Positions 27,448-46,758 of a DNA stretch of 47,357 nt are shown one piece after another. The DNA lies in IMG/VR virus record IMGVR_UViG_3300009149_000057, positions 1-47,357 of that record. The stretch is one strand, 5' to 3'. The notes under the pieces were generated by a model, which was given only the letters and a program-made list of their open reading frames with translations, was not told where the DNA came from and did no database searches. Numbering within the stretch: position 1 is the first letter of the stretch; each line of letters begins with the position of its first letter. This DNA comes from a virus. The translations under genes and the position numbers were made by a program.

Positions 27448-28281
27448 ATGAGTAAAAAATATATAAATTTTGATGTTGATGATAACATATCAAAATACTT
27501 TAAAGAAGTTAGGAAATCAACTATTTTAACTTCTGAAGAAGAATTAAAGTTAGCAAAGAGAATAAAAAGAGGGGATGAGAAAGCTATTGATATTTTGGTC
27601 AAATCAAATTTAAAATTTGTCATTTCAATAGCCAAAGAATACCAAGGACAAGGGTTATTATTATCTGACTTAATAAGTGAAGGTAATTATGGGCTTATAA
27701 AAGCTGCTACTAGATTTGACCACACAAAGGGGTTTAGGTTTATTTCCTATGCTGTTTGGTGGATTAGACAATCAATTATGCAAGCATTAAATGAGCATTC
27801 GAGATTAATCAGACTACCTTCTAATGTTATTAATAAACTTTCATACATTAGAAAGCAAATTGCTAAGTTTGAAAATGAGAATGAAAGAGAAGCTTTTACT
27901 GGTGAAATCTTTGATAAAGATGATAAGCCAATGATTATGTTAGAAATTCCAAAATGTTCATCTTTACACGATATTATAAATGATGATGGTGATGAGCTAA
28001 TAAACCTTATCCCATTTAAAGATGATAATGATGACAACGATTTTATCGTTGATGATAGAATTAAATCAGAGTTAAATAATGTTCTAGCTATTTTAGATGA
28101 TAGAGAAAGAACCATTGTTGAATCGTATTTCGCTGTAAATTCAAATTTTGAACCAATGACATTAGAAGCTATTGGTGAAAAATATGGGTTAACTAAGGAA
28201 AGAATTCGTCAAATAAAAGAAAAGGCTATTAGGAAACTAAGACATAATGCTCAAGAATTATTTAGTTTATTAAACGAATGA
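27448..28281 (+). CDS. RpoD-like sigma-70 family factor
   Basis: A 277-residue sigma factor with the full primary-type layout and no region 1.1, as in Bacteroidota RpoD. Region 1.2/2.1 is seen in EEELKLAKRIKRGDEKAIDI. Regions 2.2-2.4 follow in LISEGNYGLIKAATRFDHTK and FISYAVWWIRQSIMQAL. Region 4.2 ends LEAIGEKYGLTKERIRQIKE. Region 3 is shorter and the linker is acidic (FKDDNDDNDF). T4 gp55 is much smaller and more divergent. The phage factor may redirect host polymerase to phage promoters; the conserved 2.4 and 4.2 residues suggest it reads TTG/TAnnTTTG sites like the host factor. It overlaps the next gene by four bases. Confidence 0.85.
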   Translation: MSKKYINFDVDDNISKYFKEVRKSTILTSEEELKLAKRIKRGDEKAIDILVKSNLKFVISIAKEYQGQGLLLSDLISEGNYGLIKAATRFDHTKGFRFISYAVWWIRQSIMQALNEHSRLIRLPSNVINKLSYIRKQIAKFENENEREAFTGEIFDKDDKPMIMLEIPKCSSLHDIINDDGDELINLIPFKDDNDDNDFIVDDRIKSELNNVLAILDDRERTIVESYFAVNSNFEPMTLEAIGEKYGLTKERIRQIKEKAIRKLRHNAQELFSLLNE

Positions 28282-39506: not shown

Positions 39507-40934
39507 ATGAATACATTATTATCTGCGATGCAAACTAAAGATTCACGTACTGAAAACGGTATGGTGACTAATTCAACTTCTCTTAACAACTGTGTGGATT
39601 TATTTTTTCAAATAGGTGCGATGAGAGGTCAAGATAAAACTAGGTTGATTAATGCCTTTACAAAAGCATTTGGTGAAAACCCATTGACAGCTATGAAACT
39701 TTTATTTTGGGCACGTGATGTTCGTGGTGATGCTGGTGAGCGTCAAATATTCAAAGATATTATTGAATATCTTGCAAATAACAGAACTGAAGTGATGCGT
39801 AAAAACATTCATTTGATTTCTGAATTTGGAAGATGGGATGATATTTTAACTCTTATTGGTACTCCATTAGAAAAAGCTGCTCTTGAAGTTATCTCTAAAG
39901 GGTTGTCTGATAAGAATGGTCTTTGTGCTAAATGGATGCCACGTCCAAACGTGAAAAATCGTTTGACTAAAAGACAAGCCAATGTTATTAGACAATACCT
40001 TGATTTAACACCAAAACAATATCGTAAGTTATTGGTTGAAAATTCTAATACTGTAGAACAATTGATGTGTGCTAAAAAATGGGATGAAATTGATTATTCT
40101 AAACTCCCATCAAAAGCTATGAGTGATTTGATGAAAGCTTTCTCAAGAAATGACTTGGCTCGTTTTCAAGATTATCTAGGTAGTGTTGAAAAAGGTGAAG
40201 TAAAAATTAATGCTGGTGCTGTATATCCTTATGATATAATCAAGAATTTAAGGGCTGGTAACACCCGTGGTGCCAACGTGCAATGGGATGCCTTACCAAA
40301 CTTCTTAGAAGATTCTAATGAGTCATTTATTCCTGTTGTTGATACTTCAGGGTCAATGTATTGGCCAGAATCTAAAATAACTGGTGATTTATACGCTGGA
40401 GATGTTGCTCAATCATTAGGTCTATATCTTTCAGAAAGAAATTTAGGACCATTTAAAGATGCTATTATGACTTTTAACACAAACCCTAAGTTATGTGTTG
40501 TTTCTGGTTCTTTATCAGAAAGGTATAATCAACTTCAGTCTATACCAGTAGGTGGTTCTACCAATTTATTTGGTGTTTATAAAGTTATTTTAGAAAAAGC
40601 TATAGAATTTTCTGTACCAGAATCTGAAATGCCAACAATGATAATGATATTATCAGATATGGAATTCAATAGTGCTGGTTCACTTACAGCACAAGAAATG
40701 GTTGAAAAAATGTATTCTGACGCTGGTTATAAAGTTCCAAAAATTGTTTATTGGAATTTAGCTTCTAGAAACGATAAAAACAAACCAGTATCTTTTAATA
40801 AACAAGGAACTGCTTTAGTGAGTGGATTTTCAACTTCTATATTAGGTTCTTTATTATCAGGTAAAGATATGACTCCATTATCAATGATGATGACAGTAAT
40901 TGATTCAGAACGTTATAGTAATATAACAGTTTAA
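39507..40934 (+). CDS. DUF2828/Ro60-like protein with helical repeats and vWA domain
   Basis: A 475-residue protein. About residues 1-265 are helical repeats with DUF2828/TROVE-like features: ENGMVTNSTSLNNCVDLFFQ, LLFWARDVRGDAGERQIFKD and HLISEFGRWDDILTL. About residues 272-470 are a vWA domain with the metal-site motif VVDTSGSM (about 277-284) and a later ILSDMEF. This is the architecture of Ro60, a ring-shaped protein that binds Y RNAs and misfolded RNAs. Codon use is less AT-rich than in neighbours, which suggests strong expression or transfer. It has its own host-type promoter, and a structured RNA follows directly. The domain names come from pattern recognition; RNA binding is inferred. 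Confidence 0.75.
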   Translation: MNTLLSAMQTKDSRTENGMVTNSTSLNNCVDLFFQIGAMRGQDKTRLINAFTKAFGENPLTAMKLLFWARDVRGDAGERQIFKDIIEYLANNRTEVMRKNIHLISEFGRWDDILTLIGTPLEKAALEVISKGLSDKNGLCAKWMPRPNVKNRLTKRQANVIRQYLDLTPKQYRKLLVENSNTVEQLMCAKKWDEIDYSKLPSKAMSDLMKAFSRNDLARFQDYLGSVEKGEVKINAGAVYPYDIIKNLRAGNTRGANVQWDALPNFLEDSNESFIPVVDTSGSMYWPESKITGDLYAGDVAQSLGLYLSERNLGPFKDAIMTFNTNPKLCVVSGSLSERYNQLQSIPVGGSTNLFGVYKVILEKAIEFSVPESEMPTMIMILSDMEFNSAGSLTAQEMVEKMYSDAGYKVPKIVYWNLASRNDKNKPVSFNKQGTALVSGFSTSILGSLLSGKDMTPLSMMMTVIDSERYSNITV

Positions 40935-43424: not shown

Positions 43425-43455
43425 TTGTTTTTTAATTTAAAAATAAGTACCTTTG
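43425..43455 (+). promoter_or_regulatory. Bacteroidota-type promoter for the dnaJ gene
   Basis: TTG at 43425-43427, a 20-base spacer and TACCTTTG at 43448-43455. It fixes the dnaJ start at the ATG at 43477 and excludes an in-frame TTG start at 43453, which lies inside the promoter. Confidence 0.75.
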
Positions 43456-43476: not shown

Positions 43477-44460
43477 ATGGCAAAAAAAGATTATTATGAG
43501 GTATTAGGTGTTGGAAAAAATGCTAGCCCTGAAGAGATTAAGAAAGCTTATCGTTTATTAGCTAAAGAATATCACCCTGATAAAAACCAAGGGTCTGAAG
43601 AAGCTACTGATAAATTTAAAGAAATTTCAGAAGCATATGAAGTTCTATCTAATTCAGATAAGAAATCTAACTATGATAGATTTGGTCATGGTAATAACAG
43701 AGAAAATCAAAACCCTTTTTATGAATATTTTAGGCGAAGACATAAACCAGAAATAGTTGGTGAAACAATATCTATTTTAATTAAACTAACACTAGAAGAA
43801 ATATATAGTGGTGTTAAAAAGACCTATACGTACAATAGAAACGATTCTTGTAACACTTGTCTAGGTAAAGGTGGTCTAGACTCAACTGAGTGTCCTACAT
43901 GTCAAGGAAATGGTTCTATAATATCTACAATAAAAACATCTGTAGGTACCTTTCAAAATCAAACTACTTGTCACGATTGTAATGGTTCTGGAGAGACTTA
44001 TAAAACTGCGTGTGAATCATGTTCAGGTAGTGGTTTACAATCAATTGAAGAAACTGTGGATGTGGATATACCATCTGGTGTTGAAAACAATAATATGTTC
44101 GTGGTCCAAGGAAAAGGTAATTCAGTTAAAAATGGTAGGGCTGGTGATTTAATTTTAAAAGTTGTTGAAAAACAACATAAAGTTTTCACACGAATTAAGA
44201 ATGATTTAAAAATGAATTTAAGTCTTTCTTATTCACAACTTGTGTTGGGTGATAAAGTTGAAATAGAAACAATTGATGGTGGTAAAATACGTGTTAATAT
44301 CCCAGAATACAGTGATGTAGGGACTAATCTTAGGGTACCCACAAAAGGGTTAAAACAATTTAAAGAAAACAATAGAGGTGATTTAATTATAACCTTATCC
44401 ATTAATATCCCTAAAGAATTGGATGAAAAAACAAAAGAATTAATTCTGGCACTCAAATAA
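43477..44460 (+). CDS. dnaJ: DnaJ (Hsp40) co-chaperone
   Basis: A 327-residue type A Hsp40. The J domain (about 3-68) has the HPD motif in [10 protein letters not shown], which stimulates DnaK. A short linker replaces most of the Gly/Phe-rich region. The zinc domain (about 125-190) has all four motifs: [24 protein letters not shown] and CESCSGSG. The C-terminal substrate-binding domains follow. It is a little shorter than bacterial DnaJ (about 375 residues). Start chosen at 43477 from the promoter position. It should recruit host DnaK to phage or host proteins. It is upstream of ClpP and tmRNA genes, which suggests a protein-quality-control block. Confidence 0.9.
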
Positions 44461-44474
44461 AATAAATATTTTAC

Positions 44475-44505
44475 TTGCAAGGTTTATGTGTTAATAGTAT
44501 ATTTG
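44475..44505 (+). promoter_or_regulatory. Bacteroidota-type promoter
   Basis: TTG at 44475-44477, a 20-base spacer and TATATTTG at 44498-44505. It precedes the four-gene run at 44535-46223 that includes clpP. Confidence 0.75.
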
Positions 44506-44534
44506 CTTAAATAACAAAATAATAAAAATTAAAC

Positions 44535-44969
44535 ATGGCAAATTACCTAGAACCATTCGAAGACACCAACGACCTATTCAATCAAATAATTGAAGTGGCT
44601 GATTTAAAAAGATTTGTTAACATAACAATTTTAGTTAACAATAGAGCTAAAGACTTATACAAAATCACCAAAGCTAACGACCTTTTAAAATTTAGAGCTG
44701 GTGATGATATCATTATTGTTTTAAATGAAGGAATATTTGAAGAGTTACCAAATGATTTGAAATTGATTGTAGTTGAAGAAGCAATTTCATCAATTAGTTA
44801 TGATTCTGAACACGATAAGGTTTCTATAACCAAAGAAGATTTTACGGCTCATAGTGGAATATTAAGAAAATATAGTTTTGAGACTATTGAGCGTCTTAGA
44901 GAAACCGTAAAGTCTCTTTACCAGAAAGAAAAAGAAGAAGAAGACGAAACTGAAGCTATTACAGGGTAA
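44535..44969 (+). CDS. Conserved-type phage protein (144 aa)
   Basis: A 144-residue protein, first gene of the clpP unit. About 20-80 is alpha/beta. The second half, with LKLIVVEEAISSISYDSEHD and then GILRKYSFETIERLRETVKS, is a pattern seen in phage proteins related to small metallopeptidase-like families. The HExxH site that would make it a peptidase is absent (VVEEA instead). The tail is a Glu-rich coil. Function unknown; it may bind the protease system next to it. Confidence 0.5.
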   Translation: MANYLEPFEDTNDLFNQIIEVADLKRFVNITILVNNRAKDLYKITKANDLLKFRAGDDIIIVLNEGIFEELPNDLKLIVVEEAISSISYDSEHDKVSITKEDFTAHSGILRKYSFETIERLRETVKSLYQKEKEEEDETEAITG

Positions 44970-44973
44970 AATA

Positions 44974-45225
44974 ATGACCAGAGAAGAAATAGCTGAAATA
45001 AATCCAGATGCGTTGGTAATTGACGGGTTTGATGGTGCAATAATGGGGGTTGGTGAAAGGATAAATCTAGGACCAGTCGTTGTTTATGACACTGAAAAAA
45101 TAATAAATATAATGATAGAACGTGATGGTATGACCTACGAAGAAGCTACTGAATTTTTCGATTTCAATATTATTGGAGCTTGGATGGGAGAATTCACACC
45201 TATTTTTATGACAACTAATATTTAA
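44974..45225 (+). CDS. Small widespread phage-type protein (83 aa)
   Basis: An 83-residue protein that resembles a small family found in many phages: ALVIDGFDGAIMGVGERI, then VVYDTEKIINIMIERDGMTYEEATEFFDFNIIGAWMGE. The acidic and aromatic residues around FNIIGAWMGE are the hallmark. No function is established that I know of. It starts four bases after the previous stop and three bases before clpP, so it is co-expressed with it. Confidence 0.65.
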   Translation: MTREEIAEINPDALVIDGFDGAIMGVGERINLGPVVVYDTEKIINIMIERDGMTYEEATEFFDFNIIGAWMGEFTPIFMTTNI

Positions 45226-45228
45226 GAT

Positions 45229-45924
45229 ATGAATTTACATAATGAATTTAGAGATTATGCTATTAAACATATGGGTATTTCTCCATTAGATTTTATACAT
45301 TGGGAAGCTTTACAAAATAGAATATACGGTGTTGGAGCATCTTTAACTCCGTATATCTTAGAAGAAAGGGAATTAAGAGTAACTCAAATGGATATTTTTT
45401 CCAGATTAATGATGGAAAGAATAATTTGGTTAGCTGGTCCAGTTAATGATAGAATGAGCACAGTTGTTCAAGCACAGCTTATGTTTTTGGATAACTTGGA
45501 AAAGAAAGATATTACGTTACATGTTGACTCTCCGGGAGGTTCCGTCAAATCAGGTCTCTCAATCGTTGATGTTATGGATTATGTGTCTTCAGATATCGTT
45601 ACCATAAATACTGGAATGGCTGCAAGTATGGGTAGTATCCTTTTAGGTGCTGGTACCAAAGGAAAAAGAAGTAGCCTTAGATTTAGCAAGGTAATGCTCC
45701 ATCAAGTTTCTTCTGGAGCACAAGGAACGTTAGCTGATATTGAAATTTCATTAAATGAAGCTAAAAAATATAACACAACTTTGTTTGGTTTACTAGGTGA
45801 ATATACTGGTAAAGACCCAGAACAAGTAAAAAAAGATGCTGATAGAGATTTGTGGTTAACTGCTGAACAAGCATTAGAATATGGGTTAATTGATGATATA
45901 ATAATAAATAAAAATAAGAAATAA
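45229..45924 (+). CDS. clpP: ClpP protease subunit
   Basis: A 231-residue ClpP. Residues 1-55 form an N-terminal part longer than usual. The serine protease core has all catalytic residues: Ser133 in GMAASMGS, His158 in VMLHQVSSGAQG, and Asp207 in DADRDLWLTAEQALEYGLID. Oxyanion-loop glycines are in DSPGGSVKSG. ClpP forms a double-ring chamber that needs ClpX or ClpA to unfold substrates; no ATPase gene is in the window, so host ClpX may serve it. The gene is about 400 bases upstream of a tmRNA, whose tags are normally ClpXP substrates. Phage ClpP may also act as a prohead protease, but here no capsid genes are adjacent. Confidence 0.9.
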   Translation: MNLHNEFRDYAIKHMGISPLDFIHWEALQNRIYGVGASLTPYILEERELRVTQMDIFSRLMMERIIWLAGPVNDRMSTVVQAQLMFLDNLEKKDITLHVDSPGGSVKSGLSIVDVMDYVSSDIVTINTGMAASMGSILLGAGTKGKRSSLRFSKVMLHQVSSGAQGTLADIEISLNEAKKYNTTLFGLLGEYTGKDPEQVKKDADRDLWLTAEQALEYGLIDDIIINKNKK

Positions 45925-45926
45925 TT

Positions 45927-46223
45927 ATGAGTAGAGTAAACACTGAAAATCAATATATGCCTACTAGTATGTTAGCTGCTTCGTTATCAAGCACTAACAA
46001 TCATGAACTTCAAGACGAATCTAGTCCAAATGATAACAGAATTAAACAAATAAACATAGAACAACTAGATTATGGTTTTATTCTTAGAGTTGGCTGTCAA
46101 ACAGTCGCTATAGAAGAAAAAGAAACTTTATTGAGGGTTTTGGGTAAATACATTGAAAACCCATCAAGGGTTGAATCTAATTGGTATAAATTTAATGGTG
46201 AAAATAAATTAAATAATATTTAA
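45927..46223 (+). CDS. Small unknown protein between clpP and tmRNA (98 aa)
   Basis: A 98-residue protein starting two bases after clpP. The first 40 residues are polar and unstructured. About 45-85 form a compact unit (LDYGFILRVGCQTVAIEEKE, then TLLRVLGKYIENP) of a type common in phages next to ClpP. It is not SmpB: it lacks the basic beta-barrel and the length (about 150 residues). It may be an adaptor or partner of the phage ClpP (inferred from position). Confidence 0.55.
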   Translation: MSRVNTENQYMPTSMLAASLSSTNNHELQDESSPNDNRIKQINIEQLDYGFILRVGCQTVAIEEKETLLRVLGKYIENPSRVESNWYKFNGENKLNNI

Positions 46224-46231
46224 TAATACAC

Positions 46232-46261
46232 TTGCATTTAGAAATAAATGTAGTATATTTG
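46232..46261 (+). promoter_or_regulatory. Bacteroidota-type promoter for the tmRNA
   Basis: TTG at 46232-46234, a 19-base spacer and TATATTTG at 46254-46261. Transcription would start near 46268, about 54 bases before the mature tmRNA 5' end. A TATATTTATA at 46291-46300 may add a late promoter. Confidence 0.75.
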
Positions 46262-46321
46262 TATAAATATTGTTTTTTTATAGATATCGATATATTTATA
46301 ATTCACAGTTCTTTAAAATAT

Positions 46322-46674
46322 GGGGTGATTCAGGTATCGACTGGGTATAGTCGTAAACTGTAAGCATGTAGTGCTAAATTGGAAGCACTTAAATCTGTCT
46401 ATTGAACTTTTAATTGACAACGATTTTATCGTTTCTGAAAATTTCCTTGACGAGGCTACATGTAGCTCAGTCGGAGAGCTTGAGTTGGTCTAACGACTCT
46501 GATGGTGATAAATTCACCAAATTGTGGTAGTCCACTACATAATGGTACACCATTCGCTCTTGGTTAGTGAGCGTTAGAATTAACTTAGTTCGAAGTATTG
46601 TATAATACTGTTCTAAACATGTAGAAAACTTTTGAAGAATACTCAACACAGGGGTTCGATTCCCCTTCACTCCA
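46322..46674 (+). ncRNA. ssrA: tmRNA (ssrA-like)
   Basis: A 353-base transfer-messenger RNA. The acceptor stem pairs GGGGTGA (46322-46328) with TCACTCC (46667-46673), with the G3-U wobble that marks it for alanine. The T arm is AGGGG-TTCGATT-CCCCT (46650-46666). Helix 2 pairs GGGTAT (46343) with ATACTC (46639). The conserved AAGCATGTAG and AAACATGTAG stretches and the discriminator A are present; CCA is not encoded. Bacterial tmRNA frees stalled ribosomes and adds a degradation tag. The tag region is odd: no reading frame ends in ALAA before a stop. The best candidate runs 46416-46493 (25 codons, DNDFIVSENF to GELELV, then TAA). Confidence 0.85.
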
Positions 46675-46720
46675 CTCATCAATGATTCTTACATAACTCT
46701 GCCTTATTGTAAGAAATAAA

Positions 46721-46758
46721 AAACCCCCGATAATTCGCTTTATCGGGGGTTACTTTTT
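46721..46758 (+). terminator. Rho-independent terminator of the tmRNA gene
   Basis: AACCCCCGATA and TATCGGGGGTT form an 11-base stem with an eight-base loop, then TACTTTTTT. It lies about 47 bases after the tmRNA 3' end and just before the next late-type unit. Confidence 0.9.

Follow-up and report, generated by a model that had tools for sequence, protein, structure and literature searches.

A conserved DnaJ-ClpP-tmRNA gene block and a long tmRNA tag family in phages suggest a possible phage-owned trans-translation set

Introduction

Why would a virus keep a transfer-messenger RNA (tmRNA, ssrA) beside genes for a ClpP peptidase and a DnaJ co-chaperone, and which protease would read the tag that such an RNA adds to proteins from stalled ribosomes? 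Although phages are known to encode tmRNAs, little work has addressed the tags or what reads them. The question is raised by the virus record IMGVR_UViG_3300009149_000057 of IMG/VR, analyzed here over its whole stretch of 47,357 nucleotides (the window), in which DnaJ, ClpP and tmRNA all lie within 3.2 kb. An initial annotation had proposed that the three form a protein-quality-control module, and Pfam and Rfam searches placed each of them where it had been reported. Here we describe about 50 distinct phage tmRNAs that encode one conserved long tag beside ClpP, together with the SmpB and ClpC genes found in several of the same genomes. The purpose of a virus-owned rescue tag thus becomes directly testable, and the tag and its reader may be a new degron-protease pair in Bacteroidota.

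Results

The tmRNA gene (46322..46677, + strand) matched the Rfam family RF00023 with 65.2 bits (cut-off 47, E 2.8e-23) and folded better than all of 100 shuffled sequences (z = -4.8); the tmRNAs of relatives scored 55-73 bits with the same model. ARAGORN did not call the tmRNA in the window but called it in many relatives; taken together, the relatives' tmRNAs were recognized by this program, by Rfam or by both. Because the Rfam match and the relatives both show a tmRNA, the ARAGORN miss is a false negative. BLASTN searches with the tmRNA against phage records returned short T-arm matches only. The acceptor stem (GGGGUGA/UCACUCC) keeps the G3:U70 pair of alanine identity, with A as the discriminator at 46674, and this agrees with the alanine-type tRNA domain reported earlier. 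In relatives the stems vary by paired substitution and CUCCA is kept in most. The gene in the window does not encode CCA, so a CCA-adding enzyme would be needed. By these features, the tmRNA looks chargeable with alanine and tag-encoding.

Alignment of the tmRNAs fixed the resume codon at 46416, from which 25 codons lead to a TAA at 46491. The predicted tag frame, (A)DNDFIVSENFLDEATCSSVGELELV plus stop (46416..46493, + strand), was open in all 53 distinct tmRNAs (window and relatives), and the other two frames were closed in 49 and 52 of them. Among the 36 tags of equal length, 57% of the codons with one difference were silent, compared to a mean of 27% and a maximum of 45% in 200 column shuffles, and gaps in the tag alignment occur in threes. 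These substitution patterns are a clear indication of coding constraint on the tag frame. The encoded peptide is conserved, has 25-26 residues and follows the consensus [DG]NDFIVSENFLDEA....GE[LV]AVA, with a second subfamily of the form [DG]NEFDIDENFLDTASVEV..GEVAFA. Conservation is highest in internal segments (VSENFL and GE), and the last three positions are limited to small hydrophobic residues; the tag in the window ends in ELV and those of relatives mostly in AVA.

Tags in Bacteroidota, the likely host phylum (see below), have a different form. Nearly all of those from the 30 genomes sampled were 9-10 residues long and ended in LAA or MAA, and seven further host-type tmRNAs encode tags of 8-9 residues with the same endings; host examples include GENNYALAA, DNNYSYRLAA and ANDYSYAMAA. 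This ending, which is typical of the host phylum without defining it (Mollicutes differ too), is absent from the tag in the window. Other phage tags, read by eye, were DDEIDFRMAA in Lak, DNVNSFEQSILNELFAPVEMAVAA in LR756504 and GNILENATVGHFVAEDAAVVA in the second tmRNA of a 380-kb record. For Bacillus phage G, Enterococcus phage 113 and two relatives in which the tmRNA lies 6 kb from ClpP, the tags given by ARAGORN were AKLNITNNELQVA, AKNEELLAVA and GNAEYAMAA, respectively. Going by these predicted peptides, ends other than AA are frequent among phage tags, yet not universal. Long tags (21-24 residues) of different sequence were also encoded in further contigs of phage or phage-like character, namely L122 (a contig of the metagenome-assembled genome G030), LR756504, G018 and G112. 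The tmRNAs of the 380-kb record (G014), at 82619-82990 and 327939-328335, encode two different tags.

The ClpP gene (45229..45924, + strand) encodes a peptidase of bacterial type (PF00574, CLP_protease, 201 bits; cut-off 20) that is about 45-50% identical to host ClpPs and whose relatives in the PDB are ClpP structures. The Ser-His-Asp triad is intact in the window, as the initial annotation had it, and virtually all of 84 phage ClpPs retain it. Scores below the NCBIfam equivalog cut-offs (PRK14514, 252 vs. 361 bits; clpP, 199 vs. 308.6 bits) mark the protein as a divergent family member rather than an equivalog. Position 98 is His in 72 of the 84 phage ClpPs and Tyr in 9 of 10 host ClpPs. We take this position to lie near the unfoldase-docking cleft, and the Tyr-to-His replacement is the one clear phage-specific change there. 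It is suggestive; as the replacement is only largely phage-specific, we do not claim a changed ClpP partner from it. Outright loss of the docking cleft was rejected, two of the three differences from the E. coli protein being shared with host ClpPs.

Candidate partners of the tmRNA and of ClpP are encoded in related records, most of which are fragments in which the absence of a gene means little. SmpB, full length and over the Pfam cut-off, was present in 6 of 23 such records, all six carrying this tmRNA, and the two proteins tested with the NCBIfam equivalog model scored 184 bits (cut-off 130). When only records of at least 300 kb are counted, SmpB occurs in three of the four that have the tmRNA and in neither of the two that lack it. 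The earlier reading of SmpB as absent and supplied by the host is therefore not supported, as the absence reflects a 47-kb fragment. A ClpC-type unfoldase with two AAA+ rings, a UVR linker motif and a ClpP-docking loop was encoded in 10 of the 23 records. The loop reads VGF, IGF or MGF ([VIM]GF) and has no counterpart in ClpB, and the one phage ClpC compared was closer to host ClpC (52-60% identity) than to host ClpB (42-50%). Host ClpX, the partner expected in the initial annotation, has become an unclear choice, given the ClpC with a ClpP loop in relatives and a tag without the LAA or MAA end.

DnaJ (43477..44460, + strand) is a full co-chaperone, as first described. Its J domain (PF00226, 98 bits), zinc domain (PF00684, 48 bits) and DnaJ_C domain (PF01556, 128 bits) all exceed the Pfam cut-offs, and the translation shows HPD and four CxxCxGxG motifs. 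It scores under the NCBIfam DnaJ_bact equivalog cut-off (322 vs. 377 bits). HPD is present in 60 of 60 DnaJ proteins of relatives, and all four zinc motifs in only 34 of them. A phage HSP70 partner was rejected, as none was found in the 13 related records searched, and DnaJ would therefore need the DnaK of the host. The suggestion that DnaJ feeds the rescue pathway is without direct support.

The survey of related phages proposed at the outset found the three genes together in a broad set. We compared 46 distinct ClpP loci flanked on each side by 3.5 kb or more, a sample collected by similarity to the ClpP of the window and hence enriched in its near kin. DnaJ was upstream and tmRNA downstream in 34 loci; the others had DnaJ only (6), tmRNA only (1) or neither gene (5). 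Both neighbors were kept in 17 of 23 ClpP clusters formed at 80% identity. With the same order in 34 of 46 distinct loci, chance is excluded. The initial annotation had named relatives with the genes far apart and independent as a case that would refute the module. Most loci keep the trio together, and such dispersal was seen in two Lak phages, which have all three genes with DnaJ and tmRNA approximately 12 kb from each other and ClpP 55 to 75 kb away. Distances for ClpP, DnaJ and tmRNA correlate across relatives (Spearman 0.52-0.76); we rejected this sign of shared ancestry as evidence of cooperation because linked genes would correlate anyway.

Scanning for the Bacteroidota-type promoter pattern TTG-N18..21-TAnnTTTG identified matches 5' of dnaJ (43425..43455, + strand; TTG-N20-TACCTTTG), at the start of a four-gene unit that contains clpP (44475..44505, + strand; TTG-N20-TATATTTG) and 5' of the tmRNA (46232..46261, + strand; TTG-N19-TATATTTG). 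A match just 5' of the tmRNA was also found in 40 of 52 relatives, against a background of 5%. The three promoters serve three transcription units. The claim that each gene has its own promoter thus holds for the units and fails for ClpP, the third gene of the unit at 44535-46223. A hairpin resembling an intrinsic terminator (46722..46751, + strand), with a 12-bp stem and a T-run, probably ends the tmRNA unit.

The four-gene unit opens with a PhageMetallopep-like open reading frame (ORF; 44535..44969, + strand; PF18894, 28.3 bits, cut-off 23.7) that lacks HExxH in this copy. The second gene, o83 (44974..45225, + strand; phrog_13182), encodes a conserved small protein with ten residues invariant among 28 relatives. 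Its AlphaFold model is confident (predicted local distance difference test score, 90.9) and resembles no solved structure in the PDB, and on this basis a role as a ClpS-like adaptor was rejected. The last gene, o98 (45927..46223, + strand), is a small ORF between ClpP and the tmRNA that is present in some relatives and had no match in family searches. A DUF2828/DUF7788 protein (phrog_850, RNA-binding) is encoded at 39507-40934 of the window, and in most relatives its gene precedes DnaJ by a few kb.

The contig has no end repeats, a G+C content of 29.6% and genes nearly all on the + strand, and is part of a larger phage genome; the longest relatives with the gene block, found via ClpP, are 306 to 380 kb. 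The + strand of the window has 11 Bacteroidota-type promoter matches where 3.3 are expected. From the promoter type, the Bacteroidota-like ClpP and the 52-60% identity of the relatives' ClpC to that of Bacteroidota, we infer a host in this phylum. The window also encodes a sigma-70 family factor (27448-28281). Among 49 genes of the window, the stop codons are TAA in 44, TGA in 5 and TAG in none. The neighborhood of the block often contains transfer RNAs (tRNAs) with a CUA anticodon (amber suppressor type), in most cases 2-8 kb past the tmRNA (loci L002, L005, L009, L011, L012, L017, L019, L024, L032, L034, L060 and L071). Together with the lack of TAG stops, they would fit a recoding of TAG in this phage group. 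Phage-type ClpP loci also occur inside two public genome records, those of a Prochlorococcus single cell (L102) and of a Magasanikbacteria metagenome-assembled genome (L108). The L102 contig has 83,794 bases, the same as the viral contig of L041, and the contigs of L102 and L108 are likely phage sequence within those assemblies.

Discussion

Read together, the predicted tag and the candidate partner genes lead us to favor, with a probability of about 0.45, a phage-owned trans-translation set whose tag would be read by a phage ClpCP rather than by host ClpXP and whose DnaJ would serve host DnaK. Stalled ribosomes would be commoner when host mRNA is damaged. A host enzyme would charge the phage tmRNA with alanine, and SmpB, made by the phage in relatives that encode it and otherwise by the host, would assist the rescue. 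The tmRNA would then free the ribosomes and append a tag of 26 residues (Ala plus 25) matched to a reader on the side of the phage, namely phage ClpP driven by a ClpC-type unfoldase. DnaJ most likely folds proteins with host DnaK and would be only loosely tied to rescue. This scheme supposes that the genes are active, that ClpC and ClpP work as a pair for which the tag serves as degron, and that SmpB and ClpC are encoded elsewhere in the genome of this phage. Because the body and the end of the tag are unlike those of the host and show conservation throughout the phage clade, it is likely that something other than host ClpXP reads it. By analogy, the longer Mollicute tag with its changed end shows that such a protease switch occurs. 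In a stronger and rather doubtful version, phage tmRNA and SmpB would add a long clade-specific tag that is poor for ClpXP and good for phage ClpC-ClpP, keeping rescue and degradation apart from the host. If so, the virus would control what becomes of the products of stalled ribosomes.

Several observations weigh against a dedicated phage pathway. Neither SmpB nor ClpC is visible within the 47-kb window, no SmpB was found in the 380-kb record with two tmRNAs (G014, the record of L065), and ClpC also occurs in records lacking this tmRNA (G007, G019 and G023) and is thus not tied to it. Neighbors with no known proteostasis role are, furthermore, retained about as often as members of the trio: in 55 loci, the metallopeptidase-like ORF was kept in 48, DnaJ in 47, the tmRNA in 42, the DUF2828 gene in 40 and o83 in 38. 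Synteny alone is therefore no proof of cooperation, and the claim of a special unit is weakened; the proposed module stands as a co-occurrence of genes in related phages. It is quite possible that general gene-order conservation keeps the genes side by side while they work in separate pathways, with DnaJ folding virion proteins, ClpP acting on host proteins and the tmRNA rescuing ribosomes. The separate promoters and the dispersed genes of the Lak phages fit that explanation as well, although the co-occurrence of ClpP, DnaJ and tmRNA in the two Lak genomes searched, far apart as they are, speaks against it.

The tag itself could also be read in other ways. Tag ends of the AVA and ALA kind, a small hydrophobic residue followed by Ala, resemble E. 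coli tag variants of the LVA type, which serve as degradation tags (PMC9382460), and host ClpXP could read them. The tmRNA would then only add rescue capacity, and a ClpP of bacterial type would supplement the host peptidase. We consider this unlikely, as ClpX needs no long, clade-conserved tag body and the tag in the window ends in ELV; the His that replaces the host Tyr in most phage ClpPs, at a position that we assume to be near the cleft, also argues against it. Less likely still is a tag that is not mainly a degron and that would free ribosomes while marking or protecting the products or binding some phage factor. The internal peak of conservation, away from the C-terminus, would suit such a role, but the constraint on the last three positions is what a C-terminal degron would lead one to expect. 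A pure head-maturation role for ClpP, an objection anticipated in the initial annotation and the name of its best PHROG family, is very improbable. The protein scores far higher as a bacterial ClpP than with the NCBIfam head-maturation models, whose cut-offs it fails (NF045542, 73 vs. 120 bits; NF045540, 77 vs. 475 bits), and it is probably not the head protease because relatives carry a separate T4-type S77 prohead protease (11 of 23 related records).

Known systems share parts of the arrangement favored here, a phage trans-translation set with its own tag reader. Large metagenomic phages encode tmRNA and SmpB, as do some relatives of our phage, and rescue of stalled ribosomes was the role proposed for them (Al-Shayeb et al., 2020; PMC7162821), but the main text of that study has no ClpP, Clp, DnaJ, conserved block or long tag family. 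ClpP, DnaJ co-chaperones and ClpA/ClpX have been reported singly in jumbo phages in a 2021 overview, which assigns them separate roles in host takeover or assembly and mentions neither SmpB nor transfer-messenger RNA (PMC7824862). The tmRNA of phage Melnitz was proposed in 2022 to tag proteins, possibly those of the host, for degradation; it is of the permuted, two-piece alphaproteobacterial type, and the passages considered describe no ClpP/DnaJ block (PMC9004378). Moraphages, large aquatic phages of Bacteroidota described in 2025, have DnaJ, a ClpA-type ATPase, a prohead protease and, in some, DnaK, with no mention of tmRNA, SmpB or ClpP (PMC12619734). We found no literature on the conserved block or the tag family in a search whose coverage left out preprints (bioRxiv) and most subscription journals. 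The closest parallel for the tag is cellular: the SsrA tag of the Mollicute Mesoplasma florum is longer, ends in NYAFA and is read by Lon (PMC9382460). The points of comparison are its length, its end of the form xFA and a reading protease that is not ClpXP, as we propose for the phage tag, but its sequence is unrelated and its reader is Lon. With tmRNA and SmpB in huge phages already known, what is new is the conserved block and the tag family.

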